DNA of 64,000 nucleotides from Candidatus Nanopelagicus hibericus. Lineage in GTDB: Bacteria; Actinomycetota; Actinomycetes; Nanopelagicales; Nanopelagicaceae. This document shows positions 2,888 to 54,359 of the stretch, one piece after another. Under the pieces are notes generated by a model, which saw only the letters and a list, made by a program, of their open reading frames with translations, had not been told where the DNA came from and searched no databases. The position numbers and the translations under genes are program-made. Location of the stretch: positions 248,001-312,000 of the forward strand of contig NZ_CP016771.1 of the NCBI RefSeq assembly GCF_002288005.1, in the 5' to 3' direction. Position 1 is the first letter of the stretch. Every line of letters begins with the position of its first letter.

Positions 2888-3259
2888 GGGGGTGAACGGT
2901 CTCGACTTTAGTCGTTACTTCAAGGCAAGCGGGCCGAGGAAGCCGTGATGATCTCGTTAACCACAAAAACATGGCAAATTATAAGCGCAAGTAAAACTGC
3001 CGCTGATTATCAACTAGCTGCCTAAGCTAGCTCTGTTATCCGTTACCCGAAGTTTGTTCTCGCCTTCGGATCTAACGTCGCTAGAGGACTTACCCCTAAC
3101 CGTGTTACGGAGGTTAATGGGGACATAAATCTGTAACTGAGTCCGCAAACTACTTGTGCATGTGAGAGTTTGGACTGAGAAAGCGTTAATTGCACTACGC
3201 CCGTAGAAACTTTGAAATAGTGCTAGAGGACCCGGGTTCGATTCCCGGCACCTCCACCA
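2888..3259 (+). ncRNA. ssrA: tmRNA (one-piece), with proteolysis tag
   Basis: Transfer-messenger RNA that rescues stalled ribosomes. The 5' arm GGGGGTG (2888-2894) pairs with CACCTCC (3249-3255) to form the acceptor stem, followed by a discriminator A and encoded CCA (3257-3259). A T-arm GGTTCGATTCC precedes it. The tag reading frame starts at the resume codon GCA (2987) and ends at TAA (3023-3025), giving ASKTAADYQLAA. The terminal LAA is the conserved degradation signal, although QLAA replaces the usual ALAA. The 372-nt length fits a one-piece tmRNA. It lies just downstream of smpB. Confidence 0.95.
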
Positions 3260-7530: not shown

Positions 7531-7602
7531 GGGTGGTTAGCTCAGTGGTAGAGCGCCTCGTTTACACCGAGGATGTCGGGGGTTCGAAACCCTCACCGCC
7601 CA
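7531..7602 (+). tRNA. tRNA-Val (anticodon UAC)
   Basis: Cloverleaf with acceptor GGGTGGT (7531-7537) / ACCGCCC (7595-7601), discriminator A (7602), D-arm AGCTCAGTGGTAGAGC, anticodon stem CCTCG/CGAGG around loop TTTACAC, giving anticodon TAC (7563-7565), and T-arm GGGGGTTCGAAACCCTC. CCA is not encoded. Its last bases are repeated at 9048 and 10473, which marks it as an integration target. Confidence 0.97.
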
Positions 7603-7604
7603 CA
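7587..7604 (+). repeat. att-like direct repeat, copy 1 (3' end of tRNA-Val)
   Basis: AAACCCTCACCGCCCACA covers the T-arm 3' half, acceptor 3' strand, discriminator and two following bases. The same 18 bases recur at 9048-9065, and the last copy (10473-10492) matches 20 bases including the preceding CG. Duplicated tRNA 3' ends are the classic footprint of site-specific integration. Confidence 0.85.
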
Positions 7605-13920: not shown

Positions 13921-14272
13921 GAAGAGTCGTCTGGATCATCGCGTTATGAAAATACCGAGGAAAGTCCGGACTCCAAAGAGTGAGGTGATGGCTAACGGCC
14001 ATCCAGGGAAACCTGCGGGATTAGTGCCACAGAAAATAAACCGCCATTAGCAATAATGGTAAGGATGAAACGGTGGTGTAAGAGACCACCAGCATTTACG
14101 GCAACGTATATGGCTAGGTAAACCCCACCTGGAGCAAGACCAGATTGTTGGCATTTGAGAGCTACTCGCTCGAGTCAACGGGTAGGTTGCTTGAATCTGT
14201 AAGCAATTACAGATCTAGATGGATGATGATCTCTCGCAAGAGAACAGGATCCGGCTTATAGGGCGACTCTTC
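13921..14272 (+). ncRNA. rnpB: RNase P RNA, class A
   Basis: Catalytic RNA that matures tRNA 5' ends. The 5' GAAGAGTCG (13921-13929) pairs with CGACTCTTC (14264-14272) as helix P1. Conserved elements are GAGGAAAGTCCGGACTCC (13958 on) in P3/P4, the GAAACCTGCGGG region, CCACAGAAAATAAACCGCC, GGTAAGGATGAAACGGTG, and the 3' element GGATCCGGCTTATAGG that closes P4. The size of about 352 nt fits an actinobacterial class A RNA. A terminator hairpin follows at 14281. Its 3' end is duplicated at 14940-14961. Confidence 0.95.
14250..14271 (+). repeat. Direct repeat, copy 1: 3' end of rnpB
   Basis: The 22 bp starting TCCGGCTTATAGG and ending CGACTCTT match 14940-14961 with one difference (G at 14263, C at 14953). 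This copy is part of the functional rnpB, where it forms P4/P1. Duplication of a stable RNA 3' end suggests insertion of the intervening 690 bp. Confidence 0.8.
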
Positions 14273-14280
14273 TTCCAATT

Positions 14281-32145: not shown

Positions 32146-34104
32146 TTACCAGATCCTTACCCGCTCATCAGCTGGCATAAAGTGTTTGTCATTGTTAGCA
32201 ACTGAAAAGGCCTCATAAAACTCATCTAAATTTGTCACAATCTGGTTGCATCTAAACTCATCTGGAGAGTGGGGATCAGTTGCAACCCGCCGCTTAACCT
32301 CTTCACTTCGATACTTACCCCGCCATGATTGCGCCCAACCCATGAAAAATCGCTGCGTACCGGTGTAGCCATCAATTACTGGTGGTTGCTTTCCTGCCAA
32401 GGCGATTAAGTAAGCCTTGTAAGCAATTGTTAGGCCACCAAGATCGCCAATATTCTCACCCACAGTAAGTGCGCCATTGACCTTCACCTCTGGTGCATCG
32501 GTTGGTGATAGTTGGTTGTATTGATCAATTAATTTATTGGTCCGCTTTTCAAACTCCACTCGATCGGCATCACTCCACCAATTAACTAGGTTGCCATCAC
32601 CATCATATTTAGAGCCCTGGTCATCAAAGCCATGGCCAATCTCATGTCCAATTACTGCGCCGATGCCGCCGTAATTTGCAGCATCATCCTCGGCCAAAAC
32701 ATCGAAAAATGGTGGCTGCAATATTCCGGCTGGGAAGACAATCTCATTCATTCCAGGGTTGTAATAAGCATTAACTGTTTGTGGGGTCATATGCCACTCA
32801 GTTTTATCAACTGGTTTGCCAAGCTTTGCGTACTCATAATCGGCGGAGAATTTTGCGATCTGCTCAAGATTGCCGATTAGATCACCGGGAGTAATACTGA
32901 GTTTTGAGTAATCTCGCCACTTATCTGGATAGCCAATCTTGGGGGTGAACTTTTCTAACTTAACAAATGCCTTTTCCTTTGTCTGCTGGCTCATCCAATC
33001 TAAAGATTGGATGCTGTTGCGGTATGCCTGGATTAGATTTTTTACTAAATCAACCATTCGCTCCTTGGCAGCTGCGCCAAAGTGTCGGTCCACATAGATC
33101 TCACCCACCGCCTCACCAAGTGCGCCTTCAACTAAGCCCACACCGCGCTTCCACCGCTCTTTGAGCTTAGGTATGCCAGACAAGGTAGTGCCATAAAATG
33201 CAAAGTTTTCATTGACAAAGGCAGAGCTTAAGTAAGGGCTCGCGCCAGATAGTAAATGCCAGGTGAGCCAGGTACGCCACTTTTCTAGATCAAAATCTGC
33301 CAATAACTTATCCAACCCAGCCAGGTAGGAGGGTTGGCGGACAATTAACTCTGCTAATGCCGCAGGTGGAGTTTGTGATCTTTCAATCCAGAGTTGCCAA
33401 TTAAATGCTGGTGTAATTTGGCTGAGTTGCTCAAAGCTCATCTTGTTGTAGGTAAGGATCGCATCTCGATCCTTCACCTGGTCCCAATGATGGGATGCGA
33501 TCTGGGTTTCAAGTGCCAGCAGATCATCCGCTCGTTGTTGCGCCCGATCAATCCCGGCAAGCTCAAACATCTTTTTTACATGTGCGATAAAAGCTGCCCT
33601 GATATCTACATACTGCTCTTCGCGGTAGTAGCTCTCATCCGGCAGTGATAGGCCCGATTGGCCAAGATATAAAATGTTTCTAGCAGAGTCCTTGTCATCA
33701 GTTGATACATAGGAGTAGAAGAGAGTAGATAACCCCTCCAACTCAAATTTACCCAGCAACTCAAAAAATTCAGTTGCAGATTCAAAGGATTGCGCAGCTG
33801 CTAAATCCTTAGCAATGGGGGTGAGGTGATCCTTTTCAATCTTCGCCTCATCCATATAGCTGTTATATAAATCGCCAATTTTTTGGGCAATACTGCCATT
33901 AGGAGCTTTGCTATTTGCTTGGTCAAGAATTATCTGCTTAACCTGTTTTTCAGCCGCTTCAAAAAGCTTATAAAAAGCACCATCACTAGCCCGGTCCTCT
34001 GGAATCACCGATTCCTTTAACCACTTGCCATTCATAAACCTAAACAGGTCATCTTGGGGGCGGGTGTTTTTATCGATGTGGGTTAGATCTAGGCCGCTTC
34101 GCAT
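32146..34104 (-). CDS. M13-family (neprilysin-like) zinc endopeptidase
   Basis: A 652-aa metallopeptidase cleaving small peptides. The zinc motif is HEIGH in VIGHEIGHGFDDQGSKYDGDG; the third ligand and support lie in GENIGDLGG. The conserved C-terminal block CNQIVTNLDEFYEAFSV and terminal tryptophan fit the family. No signal peptide is visible (starts MRSGLDLTHIDKNTRPQDDLFRF), so it is probably cytoplasmic. Convergent with the peptide-type importer, it may degrade imported peptides; that link is inference. Confidence 0.93.
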   Translation of the reverse strand: MRSGLDLTHIDKNTRPQDDLFRFMNGKWLKESVIPEDRASDGAFYKLFEAAEKQVKQIILDQANSKAPNGSIAQKIGDLYNSYMDEAKIEKDHLTPIAKDLAAAQSFESATEFFELLGKFELEGLSTLFYSYVSTDDKDSARNILYLGQSGLSLPDESYYREEQYVDIRAAFIAHVKKMFELAGIDRAQQRADDLLALETQIASHHWDQVKDRDAILTYNKMSFEQLSQITPAFNWQLWIERSQTPPAALAELIVRQPSYLAGLDKLLADFDLEKWRTWLTWHLLSGASPYLSSAFVNENFAFYGTTLSGIPKLKERWKRGVGLVEGALGEAVGEIYVDRHFGAAAKERMVDLVKNLIQAYRNSIQSLDWMSQQTKEKAFVKLEKFTPKIGYPDKWRDYSKLSITPGDLIGNLEQIAKFSADYEYAKLGKPVDKTEWHMTPQTVNAYYNPGMNEIVFPAGILQPPFFDVLAEDDAANYGGIGAVIGHEIGHGFDDQGSKYDGDGNLVNWWSDADRVEFEKRTNKLIDQYNQLSPTDAPEVKVNGALTVGENIGDLGGLTIAYKAYLIALAGKQPPVIDGYTGTQRFFMGWAQSWRGKYRSEEVKRRVATDPHSPDEFRCNQIVTNLDEFYEAFSVANNDKHFMPADERVRIW

Positions 34105-34149
34105 CAGGGGGCAACCTTATCTAACAGTGATATGAAATTTAAACCATAA

Positions 34150-34181
34150 AAAAACCCCGCCATTTTACTGGCGGGGTTTTT
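34150..34181 (-). terminator. Strong intrinsic terminator (bidirectional)
   Basis: AAAAACCCCGCC (34150-34161) and GGCGGGGTTTTT (34170-34181) form a perfect 12-bp stem with an 8-nt loop, with U-tracts possible on either strand. It lies 16 nt downstream of the stop of the basic repeat-protein gene, on the minus strand, and insulates the M13 gene. Confidence 0.92.
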
Positions 34182-34196
34182 AAGTTATTAAATAAC

Positions 34197-34379
34197 TTAA
34201 GCCTTCTTACGACGACGACGCTTTGGGGCAGACTTAGCTGCCTTCTTGCGACGACGACGCTTTGGAGCAGCCTTAGCTGCCTTCTTACGACGACGACGCT
34301 TTGGAGCAGCCTTAGCTGCCTTCTTGCGACGACGACGCTTTGGTGCAGCTTTTGCTGCTTTCTTACGGCGTTTAGCCAC
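34197..34379 (-). CDS. 60-aa Lys/Arg/Ala repeat protein, histone H1/protamine-like
   Basis: From a GTG at 34379 with AGGAG 7 nt upstream, the product is 60 aa made of VAKR followed by tandem 13-residue units of the form KKAAKAAPKRRRR (four full copies with minor changes) and ending RRRRKKA. It is over half Lys+Arg with no acidic residue. Such tails occur on actinobacterial HU (HupB) and on histone H1-like proteins, but here there is no folded domain at all. Likely binds DNA or RNA non-specifically. A longer frame to 34493 exists, but its N-terminus looks random and lacks a ribosome site. Strong terminator downstream and a leader hairpin upstream point to an independent, well-expressed gene. 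Confidence 0.72.
   Translation of the reverse strand: MAKRRKKAAKAAPKRRRRKKAAKAAPKRRRRKKAAKAAPKRRRRKKAAKSAPKRRRRKKA
34201..34370 (-). repeat. Tandem 39-bp repeats encoding the KKAAKAAPKRRRR units
   Basis: About four copies of a 39-bp unit, with cores such as CTTCTTGCGACGACGACG, differing at a few third positions and one Ala/Ser codon. Units stay in frame. High identity suggests recent expansion or conversion; copy number may vary between strains. Confidence 0.85.
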
Positions 34380-34397
34380 GTGGTCTCCTATCAAAGT

Positions 34398-34418
34398 GGT
34401 TCGATCCGTCACCGAACC
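34398..34418 (-). promoter_or_regulatory. Leader hairpin upstream of the basic repeat protein
   Basis: GGTTCG (34398-34403) and CGAACC (34413-34418) form a 6-bp stem with a 9-nt loop in the 5' leader of the minus-strand gene, just upstream of its AGGAG. It could affect mRNA stability or translation. The rest of 34380-34576 is AT-rich, with nothing else recognised. Confidence 0.35.
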
Positions 34419-34576
34419 TGTTTCAGGGATAAGCGTGGCACTAAATGGGAAAAGAATCCACTCATTTGGCAAAAAATATGGAGCGTGTCGCAACTTTATT
34501 TAATTGGAATTTTATGCCGTTTTTTTAAAAATTTATCGATTTTATTGGTGTTAATTTAATAAAAACTACTGACGAG

Positions 34577-35848
34577 TTAATTATTTGGTGCAGTTTTACG
34601 TTTTTTTGCCTCTGAAATTGCAAATTTATTACTTTTGCTGTCATATTTTCGAAAATCTGGCAGCAATGCGGTGAAAAAGCAGACAAAACCGATGCAAAGT
34701 AAGCCACCTGAGACAACTGAGGTGCGAAGTGAGGTGCGCTCGGCGGTGAAGCCGGCGCGAGTTTGCCCACCTAATGGCCCAACTGAGTAGGAGATAAGTT
34801 CTACACCAGCTAATCTGCCACGAAACTCATCTGGAATAGATTGATTCCAAAGCACTGATCGAAATAGCGCCGAGACCATATCGGAGGCACCAGCCAAGAT
34901 TAGAAATAGCAAAATCAATGCCAGGTTATTTACCAATCCAGCCAAGGTAATTGCTACCCCCCAGCCAAGGGCTGCTAAAAATATTGCCCGACCATGTTTG
35001 GTATAGCTTTTAACCCAACCACTGGTCACCGTAACTAGTAATGAACCAATAGTGCCGGCGGCGTAAAAGAAACCTAGCGCCCAAGGTGCATTTACCTGAT
35101 CTGCCCAAAACGGATACAGCGCAGTTGGCATTGCAAAAAACATCGCCGAAAGATCTACTAGATAAGTACCCATTAAATCCTTGCGGCTGGTGGCGTACTT
35201 AACCCCTGCCACCAAACTAGAAAATGCTGGTTTTTCATTGACCTCAATTGGCGGCACACTTCTAACTCGGATCAATATTGTTAAGGATAAAAAGTAGGTA
35301 AGGATGTCCAAGATGTACCCGGCAGGAACTCCGGCTACGGAGATTAAAACTCCAGCTAATGCTGGCCCAGCCACCATGCCAATCTGCCAGCGCAAACTCA
35401 TTAACGCACTTGCTGCGGGCAGATCTTTGTGTTCAACTAATCTGGGCAAAATCGCATCTGCGCTAGGTCGTTGTAATCCATCAACTGCTGAAAAGAGTGC
35501 GGCCACAATATAGATCAGGGCTAATTTTGGCTCTGGCAGCAGCGCGTTGATTAATAGTATTGCTGATAAAAATAATGCGGCGAACTCAGTTGCCCAGATC
35601 ATTTTTTTGCGATCCATATGATCTGCCAGCACCCCGCCGTAGAGACCAAAGACCACCAGCGGAATAATCTCTACCAAGCCAATTAAGCCAACTGCTAGAA
35701 AAGAGTTAGTTAACTCCTTCACCTGAAAGGGCAGTGCGACATAGGTGAACATGGAGCCAAAGTAGGAAATTAATCCAGAGAGCCATAGCCGGCGAAAATC
35801 TGGATACCGCTTCAGAGGTGAAAAATCTATCGCCAGATTTGCTTTCAA
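34577..35848 (-). CDS. MFS transporter (MFS_3/EntS-like)
   Basis: A 423-aa major-facilitator protein with about 12 predicted helices. The N-terminal FRRLWLSGLISYFGSMFTYVALPFQVKELTNS and the loop motif GVLADHMDRKKMIW (about 71-84) match the exporter subgroup that includes EntS. Substrate unknown; relatives export siderophores or drugs. TTG start at 35848 after a GGGGGG stretch, 18 nt downstream of panB on the same strand. Confidence 0.88.
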   Translation of the reverse strand: MKANLAIDFSPLKRYPDFRRLWLSGLISYFGSMFTYVALPFQVKELTNSFLAVGLIGLVEIIPLVVFGLYGGVLADHMDRKKMIWATEFAALFLSAILLINALLPEPKLALIYIVAALFSAVDGLQRPSADAILPRLVEHKDLPAASALMSLRWQIGMVAGPALAGVLISVAGVPAGYILDILTYFLSLTILIRVRSVPPIEVNEKPAFSSLVAGVKYATSRKDLMGTYLVDLSAMFFAMPTALYPFWADQVNAPWALGFFYAAGTIGSLLVTVTSGWVKSYTKHGRAIFLAALGWGVAITLAGLVNNLALILLFLILAGASDMVSALFRSVLWNQSIPDEFRGRLAGVELISYSVGPLGGQTRAGFTAERTSLRTSVVSGGLLCIGFVCFFTALLPDFRKYDSKSNKFAISEAKKRKTAPNN

Positions 35849-35866: not shown

Positions 35867-36676
35867 TTAATTAAAGCTTTGCTCTGCAGTCGGAAATCTA
35901 CCCGCTGCTACATCTTGGGCAAACTCACTCACCGCATCGCTCATCTCTTTACGCATATTTCGGTACGCCTTTGCAAGCTTTGGTATTTTCGCGGTTAATC
36001 CCATCAGATCAGTCCAAACTAAAACTTGGCCATCACAATCAACCCCAGCACCAATGCCAATTGTGGGAACTGAGATGGCGCTGGTTATCTGCTTTGCCAG
36101 TTGCGCAGGGACCGCCTCCAAGACGATGGCAAAAACCCCAGCCGCAACCAAAGCTTTGGCATCATTAATGATCACCTGAGCATCATCACCACGTCCTTGC
36201 ACCTTAAAGCCACCCAGGGTGTGAACAGATTGTGGGGTTAGACCAAGGTGTCCCATCACTGGAATACCAGAAGCAACAAGTTTTTGAATCTGTGGCACTA
36301 CTTTGACTCCACCCTCTAGTTTTACTGCGCCCACCTTTGCTTCTTTAAAAAATCTAATTGAGGTAATTAACGCCTGCTCTGGGGAGCTCTCATATGAGCC
36401 AAATGGCAGATCTGCCACCACCATCGCTTTGCTACTTGAATTAACCACCGCCCGAGCCATGGGAATCAACTCATCAACTGTTACTGGGATAGTGTTTTCA
36501 AAGCCGAGGAAATTATTACCAGCAGAGTCGCCCACCAATAAAACTGGAATATTTGCGGAGTCAAAAATTTCTGCGGTGATCTGTTCGTAGCAGGTCAGCA
36601 TCGCAAATCTTTCACCCGCCCGCTTTTTGGCAGCTAAATCCGCAACTGAGATCCGCACACTTTGAGCATTGCTCAT
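35867..36676 (-). CDS. panB: 3-methyl-2-oxobutanoate hydroxymethyltransferase
   Basis: Makes ketopantoate from 2-oxoisovalerate and methylene-tetrahydrofolate, the first step to pantothenate and CoA. The 269-aa protein keeps MLTCYEQITAEIFDSANIPVLLVGDS (metal-binding D), DLPFGSYESSPEQA, VKLEGG, GHLGLTPQS and IGIGAGVDCDGQVLVWTDLMGL. Start ATG at 36676 with AAAAGGAG upstream. No panC or panD is adjacent. Divergent from nadE. Confidence 0.96.
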   Translation of the reverse strand: MSNAQSVRISVADLAAKKRAGERFAMLTCYEQITAEIFDSANIPVLLVGDSAGNNFLGFENTIPVTVDELIPMARAVVNSSSKAMVVADLPFGSYESSPEQALITSIRFFKEAKVGAVKLEGGVKVVPQIQKLVASGIPVMGHLGLTPQSVHTLGGFKVQGRGDDAQVIINDAKALVAAGVFAIVLEAVPAQLAKQITSAISVPTIGIGAGVDCDGQVLVWTDLMGLTAKIPKLAKAYRNMRKEMSDAVSEFAQDVAAGRFPTAEQSFN

Positions 36677-36784: not shown

Positions 36785-38479
36785 GTGAGCCAGACCGGAC
36801 AGATCAGAATCGCACTTGCCCAGATCAACCCAACTGTTGGTGATCTAAGTAAGAACGCTGATCTAATATCTAAGTACGCCTTTGATGCCGCCAACGCAGG
36901 CGCCGTGGTTGTGGTCTATCCGGAGATGGTTTTAACCGGTTATCCAGTAGAGGATTTAGCAAACCGACCATCATTTAGAGCAGCCTCAATTGCGGCGATC
37001 ACAAAGCTTGCAGCCCGGATTAATAATGAGGGCAATGGTGATTTAACTTTGCTAGTTGGCTATCTGGGAGAAAGTGATGCTGCCCGGCCACAAAACTGTG
37101 TTGCAGTTATTTATCGGGGCGAAATAGTTGCCACCTATATCAAGCACCATCTGCCAAATTATGGCGTTTTTGATGAGTATCGAAACTTCACCCCCGGCAA
37201 TCACTCATTGGTAATTCGAGTTTGTGGGGTGGATATTGGGATTGCTATTTGTGAGGATATTTGGCAAAGCGGTGGCCCAGTTGCGGAGTTAACTAAACGC
37301 AATATCGGCTTATTACTGGTGCCAAATGGCTCACCCTATGAGATCAATAAAGATGATGCCAGATTAGCTTTGGTGCAAAAGCGGGCGATTGAGGTTGGCG
37401 CCCCACTTGCCTATGTCAATATGACAGGTGGTCAAGATGATTTAGTTTTTGATGGCGACACAATTGTGGTTGGCCCAACTGGTGAGGTAATTGCCAGAGC
37501 CCCACAATTTGAGGATGGATTAGCTGTAATTGATCTTGATGTCAGATTAGCCTCATCTGATCCTGATTTAATTATCTCTAATCCGCCAATATTAAAGTAT
37601 AAAAAGCTGCAATCTGGTGTGGCCAGAAGGTTGGGAGATCTAGAGGAGATCTGGCAAGGCTTAGTAATTGGTCTTCGTGATTATGTGGAGAAAAATAATT
37701 TTAAATCTGTAATTCTCGGCTTATCTGGCGGAATTGATTCTGCATTAACTGCAGCCTTAGCAGCTGATGCCCTTGGTAGTAATCGAGTTTTTGGCGTAGC
37801 AATGCCAAGCAAGTACTCATCGCAGCACTCACTAGCTGATGCAAAGGAGCTTGCGATAAATACCGGTTTAAATTATCGAATCATTGAAATAACTCCGATG
37901 GTGGCAAACTTAATTGAAAATCTACATCTGGCAGGAGTTGCAGAGGAGAATCTGCAAGCACGGGTGCGGGGTATTACCTTGATGGGATTATCCAATCAAG
38001 AGGGGCATCTGGTTCTGGCCACCGGCAATAAATCTGAGTTAGCAGTTGGCTACTCCACCTTGTATGGCGATGCAGTTGGCGGATTTGCGCCAATAAAAGA
38101 TTTATATAAAACCCAGGTTTGGCAGTTGGCAAAGTGGCGCAATGAGTTGGCAATCTTGCAAGGGCAAACTCCACCTATTCCAGTTAACTCAATTGAAAAA
38201 GAGCCAAGTGCGGAGCTGGCACCTGATCAAAAGGATTCTGATTCTCTGCCCCCTTACGGAACACTTGATCAGATCTTGGCTATATATATAGATCAAGATG
38301 GTGGCCGGCCAGCTGCGATCGCTGCCGGTTTTGATCCTGCTCTGGTGGACAAGGTAGTTAGGTTGGTAGATCGGGCTGAGTACAAACGGCGGCAGTATCC
38401 ACCAGGCACAAAGATCTCAAGTAGGGCATTTGGTAAGGATCGCAGATTGCCTATTACCTCACATTGGAATGAATCTTAA
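36785..38479 (+). CDS. nadE: Glutamine-dependent NAD+ synthetase
   Basis: Last step of NAD synthesis: amidation of deamido-NAD using ammonia from glutamine. The 564-aa protein has an N-terminal nitrilase-type amidase with catalytic E47, K120 and C156 (AICEDIW), and a C-terminal synthetase with the P-loop LGLSGGIDSALTAALA (about 313-328). GTG start at 36785. Compared with the mycobacterial ~680-aa enzyme, it is the shorter form common in other bacteria. Confidence 0.95.
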   Translation: MSQTGQIRIALAQINPTVGDLSKNADLISKYAFDAANAGAVVVVYPEMVLTGYPVEDLANRPSFRAASIAAITKLAARINNEGNGDLTLLVGYLGESDAARPQNCVAVIYRGEIVATYIKHHLPNYGVFDEYRNFTPGNHSLVIRVCGVDIGIAICEDIWQSGGPVAELTKRNIGLLLVPNGSPYEINKDDARLALVQKRAIEVGAPLAYVNMTGGQDDLVFDGDTIVVGPTGEVIARAPQFEDGLAVIDLDVRLASSDPDLIISNPPILKYKKLQSGVARRLGDLEEIWQGLVIGLRDYVEKNNFKSVILGLSGGIDSALTAALAADALGSNRVFGVAMPSKYSSQHSLADAKELAINTGLNYRIIEITPMVANLIENLHLAGVAEENLQARVRGITLMGLSNQEGHLVLATGNKSELAVGYSTLYGDAVGGFAPIKDLYKTQVWQLAKWRNELAILQGQTPPIPVNSIEKEPSAELAPDQKDSDSLPPYGTLDQILAIYIDQDGGRPAAIAAGFDPALVDKVVRLVDRAEYKRRQYPPGTKISSRAFGKDRRLPITSHWNES

Positions 38480-54285: not shown

Positions 54286-54358
54286 TCCCTGATAGCTCAA
54301 TTGGCAGAGCAGCCGGCTGTTAACCGGCAGGTTCTTGGTTCGAGTCCAAGTCAGGGAG
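54286..54358 (+). tRNA. tRNA-Asn (anticodon GUU)
   Basis: Acceptor TCCCTGA (54286-54292) pairs with TCAGGGA (54351-54357), discriminator G (54358). D-arm TAGCTCAATTGGCAGAGCA, anticodon stem GCCGG/CCGGC around loop CTGTTAA (anticodon GTT at 54319-54321), T-arm CTTGGTTCGAGTCCAAG. CCA not encoded. The next start codon is 2 nt downstream. Confidence 0.97.
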
Positions 54359-54359
54359 C

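Follow-up and report, generated by a model that had tools for sequence, protein, structure and literature searches.

A basic repeat gene with a conserved leader hairpin at the panB locus of Nanopelagicaceae, a candidate free-standing H1-like tail

RESULTS AND DISCUSSION

The basic repeat gene and its locus

The window, by which we mean the whole 64-kb stretch of DNA that was analysed, carries on its minus strand (34379-34197) an open reading frame for a 60-aa protein, VAKRRKKAAKAAPKRRRR...KKA, which starts with GTG and stops with TAA. The initial annotation had described an all-basic protein without acidic residues, built of four 13-residue units encoded by 39-bp repeats, and both descriptions hold. 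The protein consists of 19 Lys, 18 Arg, 17 Ala, 4 Pro, one Ser and one Val, with no Asp or Glu; its translation gives four 13-aa units (KKAAKAAPKRRRR three times and KKAAKSAPKRRRR once), and Tandem Repeats Finder returned a 39-bp period with 4.3 copies and 92% matches, the sole array in the 64-kb window. The density of Lys plus Arg reaches 25 per 40 aa in this frame versus 14 in the runner-up frame of the window. The features of the locus are listed below.

32146..34104, minus strand: M13 peptidase, PepO-like, downstream neighbour (syntenic)
34150..34181, minus strand: intrinsic terminator, stem of 13 pairs, 7 of them G-C; the stem sequence differs between relatives
34197..34379, minus strand: basic repeat protein gene, 60 aa (open reading frame; relatives in the family)
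34201..34367, minus strand: four 39-bp / 13-aa tandem units KKAAKAAPKRRRR (repeat finding)
34385..34389, minus strand: Shine-Dalgarno (SD) sequence AGGAG (sequence; SD-like sequence also in leader alignments of relatives)
34398..34418, minus strand: leader hairpin GGUUCGGU-GACGG-AUCGAACC (8-bp fold, covariation, family-wide matches)
34427..34441, minus strand: conserved upstream block GTGCCACGCTTATCC, consensus TGnCACGCTTATCC, promoter or start of leader (alignments; also in the f27 leader match)
34483..34493, minus strand: candidate promoter box TTGCGACACGC, containing GACAC, about 112 nt upstream of the start (motif conservation)
34577..35848, minus strand: MFS transporter, upstream neighbour (syntenic)
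35867..36676, minus strand: PanB, ketopantoate hydroxymethyltransferase, PF02548 (syntenic)
36785..38479, plus strand: presumably NadE, NAD synthetase, named from its sequence (syntenic)

An AGGAG and a leader hairpin had both been proposed beforehand and are indeed there, at 34389-34385 and, as an 8-bp fold, at 34418-34398, as is the terminator at 34181-34150, although its stem has 13 pairs rather than the 12 bp first given. The strand opposite to the repeat is likewise open (34246-34503, plus strand, with RRRRFGAALAAFL units), as in many relatives, which is a by-product of the codon pattern. The window also holds genes for RNase P RNA (13923-14274), tmRNA (2888-3259, tag ASKTAADYQLAA), tRNA-Val (7531-7603) and tRNA-Asn (54286-54359).

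The order NadE, PanB, MFS transporter, leader with basic gene, MarR and PepO recurs across genera in stretches of 10 kb and 4 kb. In most genera a convergent MarR gene lies downstream, between the basic gene and PepO (for instance L091:4398-4910); the genomes examined from the window's genus lack it (in the window, the gap 34104-34197). Database searches with the window protein matched no Pfam family, neither of the NCBIfam models Hc2 (NF038052) and H1-like (NF038053), and not the HU fold (PF00216); a PDB search gave nothing useful, its single match, to NLRP5, having an E value of 0.05.

The leader hairpin

A hairpin with a GACGG loop is shared by 44 distinct upstream regions, 31 of which were used to build a covariance model; the alignment excludes L015, which carries an insertion. 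Pairing holds in 99.1% of cells across 53 distinct rows, and four pairs change on both sides, in an alignment that was fitted to the covariance model and so favours the structure. None of 500 shuffles scored as high on either measure (cells paired or two-sided changes), and sliding the partner destroyed the pairing. Similar results were obtained with a MAFFT alignment (99.2% of cells paired, two pairs with two-sided changes), and RNAalifold proposed the identical helix unprompted. The stem covaries around an invariant GACGGAU, which is kept even in L152 and L023, where the stem is largely rewritten. The leader is a structured element whose pairing covaries, and it is better conserved than the protein that it precedes. 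An RNA-family scan of the window found no known family at gathering threshold for the leader, and under permissive settings 44 matches appeared, none of which reached gathering; they lay at the terminator and the repeat, and the hairpin had none.

Masking of the SD sequence by a conserved TTATCC/TTCTCC tract looked attractive by eye but did not rise above shuffles: the mean unpaired value of the SD was 0.27 against 0.30 with the 5' tract shuffled, being lower in 19 of 33 cases, and the small SD helix showed no double changes. In other families pentaloop hairpins could be drawn in several cases, with none of seven folds significant.

Upstream box and terminator

The motif CGACACG is present in the 160 nt upstream of 42 of the 44 family genes (0.38 expected), and in 37 of the 44 it takes the form GCGACAC, then lying 111-120 nt from the start. 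GCGACAC is also found upstream of 10 of 18 basic genes outside the family (0.86 expected), the four f9 genes being without it. A scan with promoter consensus sequences gave nothing useful. GACAC is given as the WhiA motif in the available text of PMC3781837, and whiA as well as whiB-type genes were present in 8/8 genomes tried; that the gene could be a WhiA/WhiB target is, however, offered as a lead only, since a five-base motif is weak evidence. At the other end of the unit a terminator-like site follows 34 of 40 genes versus 0 of 800 shuffles, and inspection by eye reveals a stem in five of the six genes without a scored terminator, the remaining one being masked sequence. Taken together, the conserved hairpin and the promoter element suggest that production of the protein is controlled, and the leader would regulate translation or mRNA stability.

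Distribution in the family

Searching with the protein, we obtained a match at E<=1 in 36 of the first 60 genomes (18 of 25 in the genus, own genome included) and at E<=0.1 in 77 of 151 family genomes, and a protein search of named genomes returned one locus only. Low complexity hampers such searches and the RNA model finds far more: the covariance model of the leader matched 128 of 151 family genomes and 78 of 83 good ones. Low complexity, together with assemblies that break in the repeat, probably explains part of the misses of the protein search; many leader matches sit at contig ends. In a sample of the order, which overlaps the family sample, 134 of 151 genomes matched, and in a sample of the class 16 of 197, all in the family, with none outside it at E<=1e-3. 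The 21-mer of the leader was absent from the viral contigs searched (0 matches). The own genome has a single leader match at E<=0.01, which is also unique in the window. Two matches per genome were seen in G010, G072, G078, G110, G185, G200 and G201, several of them at contig ends; these are probably duplicated contig ends at the repeat and no true second copies.

In 84 of 86 distinct contexts in which a six-pair stem encloses GACGGAT, the sequence downstream opens into a basic ORF, the two exceptions being L163, which ends at a contig end, and L254, an unrelated place. The ORFs behind these 84 hairpins hold two acidic residues in 7568 and are 50% Lys plus Arg, and loop and start codon lie 31-37 nt apart, with a distance of 32 or 33 nt in 78 of the 84. 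The basic repeat gene is not an oddity of one strain but a family-wide one.

Repeat number and upstream frame among relatives

Counted by motif, 41 family genes have 3 to 12 units, with three of these genes running past the end of their contig; one further gene, L020, is cut by a contig end and counts one unit. The initial annotation had expected the number of 39-bp units to vary between strains, and the variation found here is between species. Very short versions occur in the draft genomes L122 (24 aa) and L020 (27 aa, stopping at the contig end), and a collapsed repeat may explain that of L122. Among relatives both the number and the sequence of the units drift widely; long Arg runs are a trait of the genus of the window and its near kin, the relatives being rich in Lys, Ala and Pro.

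In all 20 other family ORFs of one comparison the upstream frame closes four codons or fewer before the start, and in the window and a few relatives (L088, L091, L092, L106, L108) it stays open for about 24-45 codons, across the leader hairpin. The upstream frames, where short, do not resemble one another, and the others run across the leader, so within the family there is no N-terminal domain concealed upstream. A longer folded N-terminal domain in all homologues had been named beforehand as the finding that would speak against a free-standing basic protein; inside the family there is none, while two loci of other families do carry such a domain, DUF1508.

Relatives outside the family

Of 69 genomes of the class, 64 have PanB. 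Outside the family a strongly basic frame lies near panB at 18 of 60 loci, in ten families (f5, f25, f34, f2, f12, f14, f9, f31, f22 and f27), which should not be read as a true rate because we set the basic-frame rule ourselves and some stretches end early at contig ends; at the other 42 of 60 loci no such basic gene is seen. Among eleven outside proteins scanned, those of f14, f2, f12, f22 and one of two f9 members exceed the Pfam HC2 cut-off, which two f5 members, one of f25 and the other f9 member do not pass, f27 and f31 likewise staying below it.

A DUF1508 domain over cut-off precedes the tail in f22 and f27, and f31 scores below (18.4 of 22 bits). The f22 and f27 genes sit at the panB locus, and their VPAK/VAAK start is similar to that of the window protein. 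The leader model gives a weak match at the f27 gene (20.2 bits, E 0.031 in 155.6 kb) that ends one base before the GTG, and a faint one at f21 (12.5 bits, E 0.3) that ends three bases short of the GTG. The MFS neighbour of the f27 gene is 48% identical to that of the window, and this, combined with the leader match, links the f27 gene with that of the window. Short Lys/Ala/Pro tails also occur on DUF1508 proteins of f11 and f21 (L276, L280, L281, L284), encoded away from the panB stretches examined. DUF1508 had no match in the 11 family genomes listed, the own genome included. In a two-gene tree with weak forks the tail accompanies DUF1508 in three separate places, so that the domain may have been lost in the window's family or gained elsewhere. 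Within one bacterial class the H1-like tail can here be traced both alone and joined to a folded partner domain.

Possible function and alternative explanations

We favour the view, at a probability of roughly 60%, that the gene encodes a free-standing H1-like tail of an actinobacterial protein which helps to compact the nucleoid, its dose being set by its own transcription unit. The 60-aa protein is predicted to be disordered, to bind DNA and to compact it. Such a polycation would bind the nucleoid non-specifically through its Lys/Arg clusters and would help to compact or charge-neutralise the DNA, working beside the cell's ordinary tailed HU, while its dose would be set by a dedicated monocistronic unit with the CGACACG box, the GACGG-loop hairpin just upstream of the ribosome-binding site and its own terminator. 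Its proposed origin is an actinobacterial protein of the panB locus, of which it would be the C-terminal tail and which in some families bears an N-terminal DUF1508. The product may also feed back on its own leader. An invariant hairpin loop next to a gene for an Arg-rich product makes such feedback on the mRNA worth testing; more speculatively, the Arg-run units would bind their own GACGG hairpin as well, so that saturation of the nucleoid frees protein which shuts off its own translation, a self-titrating dosage circuit for DNA packing that we regard as rather unlikely.

Polycations bind RNA and polyphosphate too, and other roles can be argued. The protein might act chiefly on RNA, coating ribosomal or messenger RNA or seeding RNA condensates, with the leader hairpin as its own specific target for feedback; its Arg-rich units, an invariant-loop leader better conserved than the protein and a nearly constant distance to the start codon (32-33 nt in 78 of 84) are in keeping with this, but relatives in other families are rich in Lys, Ala and Pro like DNA-binding H1 tails and the Pfam and NCBIfam scans matched no RNA-binding family, so we consider it improbable, about on a par with the dosage circuit. 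We are more doubtful still of a role in tying polyphosphate or other granules to the nucleoid and spacing them, after the manner of the AlgP/PhaF tails: AlgP, an H1-like protein with KPAA repeats, associates with polyP granules and spaces them, but it has a further N-terminal domain (both as given in the accessible text of PMC9239181), which the window protein lacks.

The gene could also be a decaying remnant of a DUF1508 fusion, with selection acting on the leader RNA or promoter only. DUF1508 does stand before the tail in f22 and f27, and unit number and sequence drift widely, but a relic would commonly show stops and frameshifts, and across 84 contexts the frame is basic, all but free of acidic residues and starts at a near-fixed distance, which makes decay very unlikely. 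We find it scarcely credible that the minus-strand frame arises as an artefact from a GC-rich repeat and that any real product comes from 34246-34503 on the plus strand: the opposite strand is open with its RRRRFGAALAAFL repeats, but the minus strand is the one with a matching SD, start, leader, upstream box and terminator, all of which recur in relatives, and most differences between the four units fall at third codon positions of the minus-strand frame.

In genome size and gene content the family of the window resembles the acI actinobacteria, a streamlined freshwater group, and to our knowledge little is known about DNA packing in such small cells. In the open-licence papers searched, a coverage that is no proof of absence, we found no description of the gene, its leader or its locus, and the available portion of an acI transcriptome paper (PMC5574706) names no such gene. 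A single-copy candidate at a fixed locus, with a putative regulatory RNA built in, makes the DNA-packing idea directly testable.

Comparison with known systems

An Arg-rich peptide and a pentaloop hairpin form the pair of lambda N and boxB; the gene described here likewise has an Arg-rich product and a pentaloop, but GACGG is not a boxB loop and the likeness is by analogy only. DUF1508 (YegP) proteins with basic tails share the locus in f22 and f27, with a leader match in f27, whereas the window's family lacks the domain. AlgP and PhaF of Pseudomonas are comparable in their disordered H1-like repeat tail, and AlgP differs in its N-terminal domain and granule role (PMC9239181, available text).

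Among DNA-binding proteins, the actinobacterial HU proteins HupB and HupS, with their H1-like tails, have a similar PAKK/KAAK-type tail chemistry, and in HupB these tails are required for nucleoid association (PMC5676037, in the part accessible), but the window protein has no HU fold. We ruled out a HupB split into head and tail, because the genome keeps, as a separate gene (G000:C1:775321-775587), a normal 131-aa HU that retains its own tail. The initial annotation had likened the protein to a HupB/H1 tail or a protamine; the H1/HupB-like tail is the best reading, and protamine fits less, the relatives being Lys/Ala/Pro-rich and long Arg runs being a trait of the genus and near kin.

Chlamydial Hc2 (HctB) and Bordetella BpH1 are Lys/Ala-rich H1-like repeat proteins whose length varies with repeat number (PMC2848022, as far as its available text goes). 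The variation in repeat number is similar, and an orthologue with the window's leader (G028, P0003) matches Pfam HC2 (PF07382) at 50.6 bits against a cut-off of 40, which same-locus genes elsewhere also pass, although HC2 matches rest on biased composition. This orthologue is the one of three scanned with the same leader that passes, P0002 and P0004 giving no match, and the highest scores of relatives are 48.5 bits against NF038052 (cut-off 135) and 45.9 bits against NF038053 (cut-off 80). Unlike Hc2 and BpH1, the window protein fails HC2 and is therefore not filed there, has 13-aa units with Arg runs, belongs to another phylum and has its own locus and leader RNA. The resemblance may be convergent, and the best reading, on sequence grounds, is that the protein would work like an H1 tail or an Hc2-type protein.
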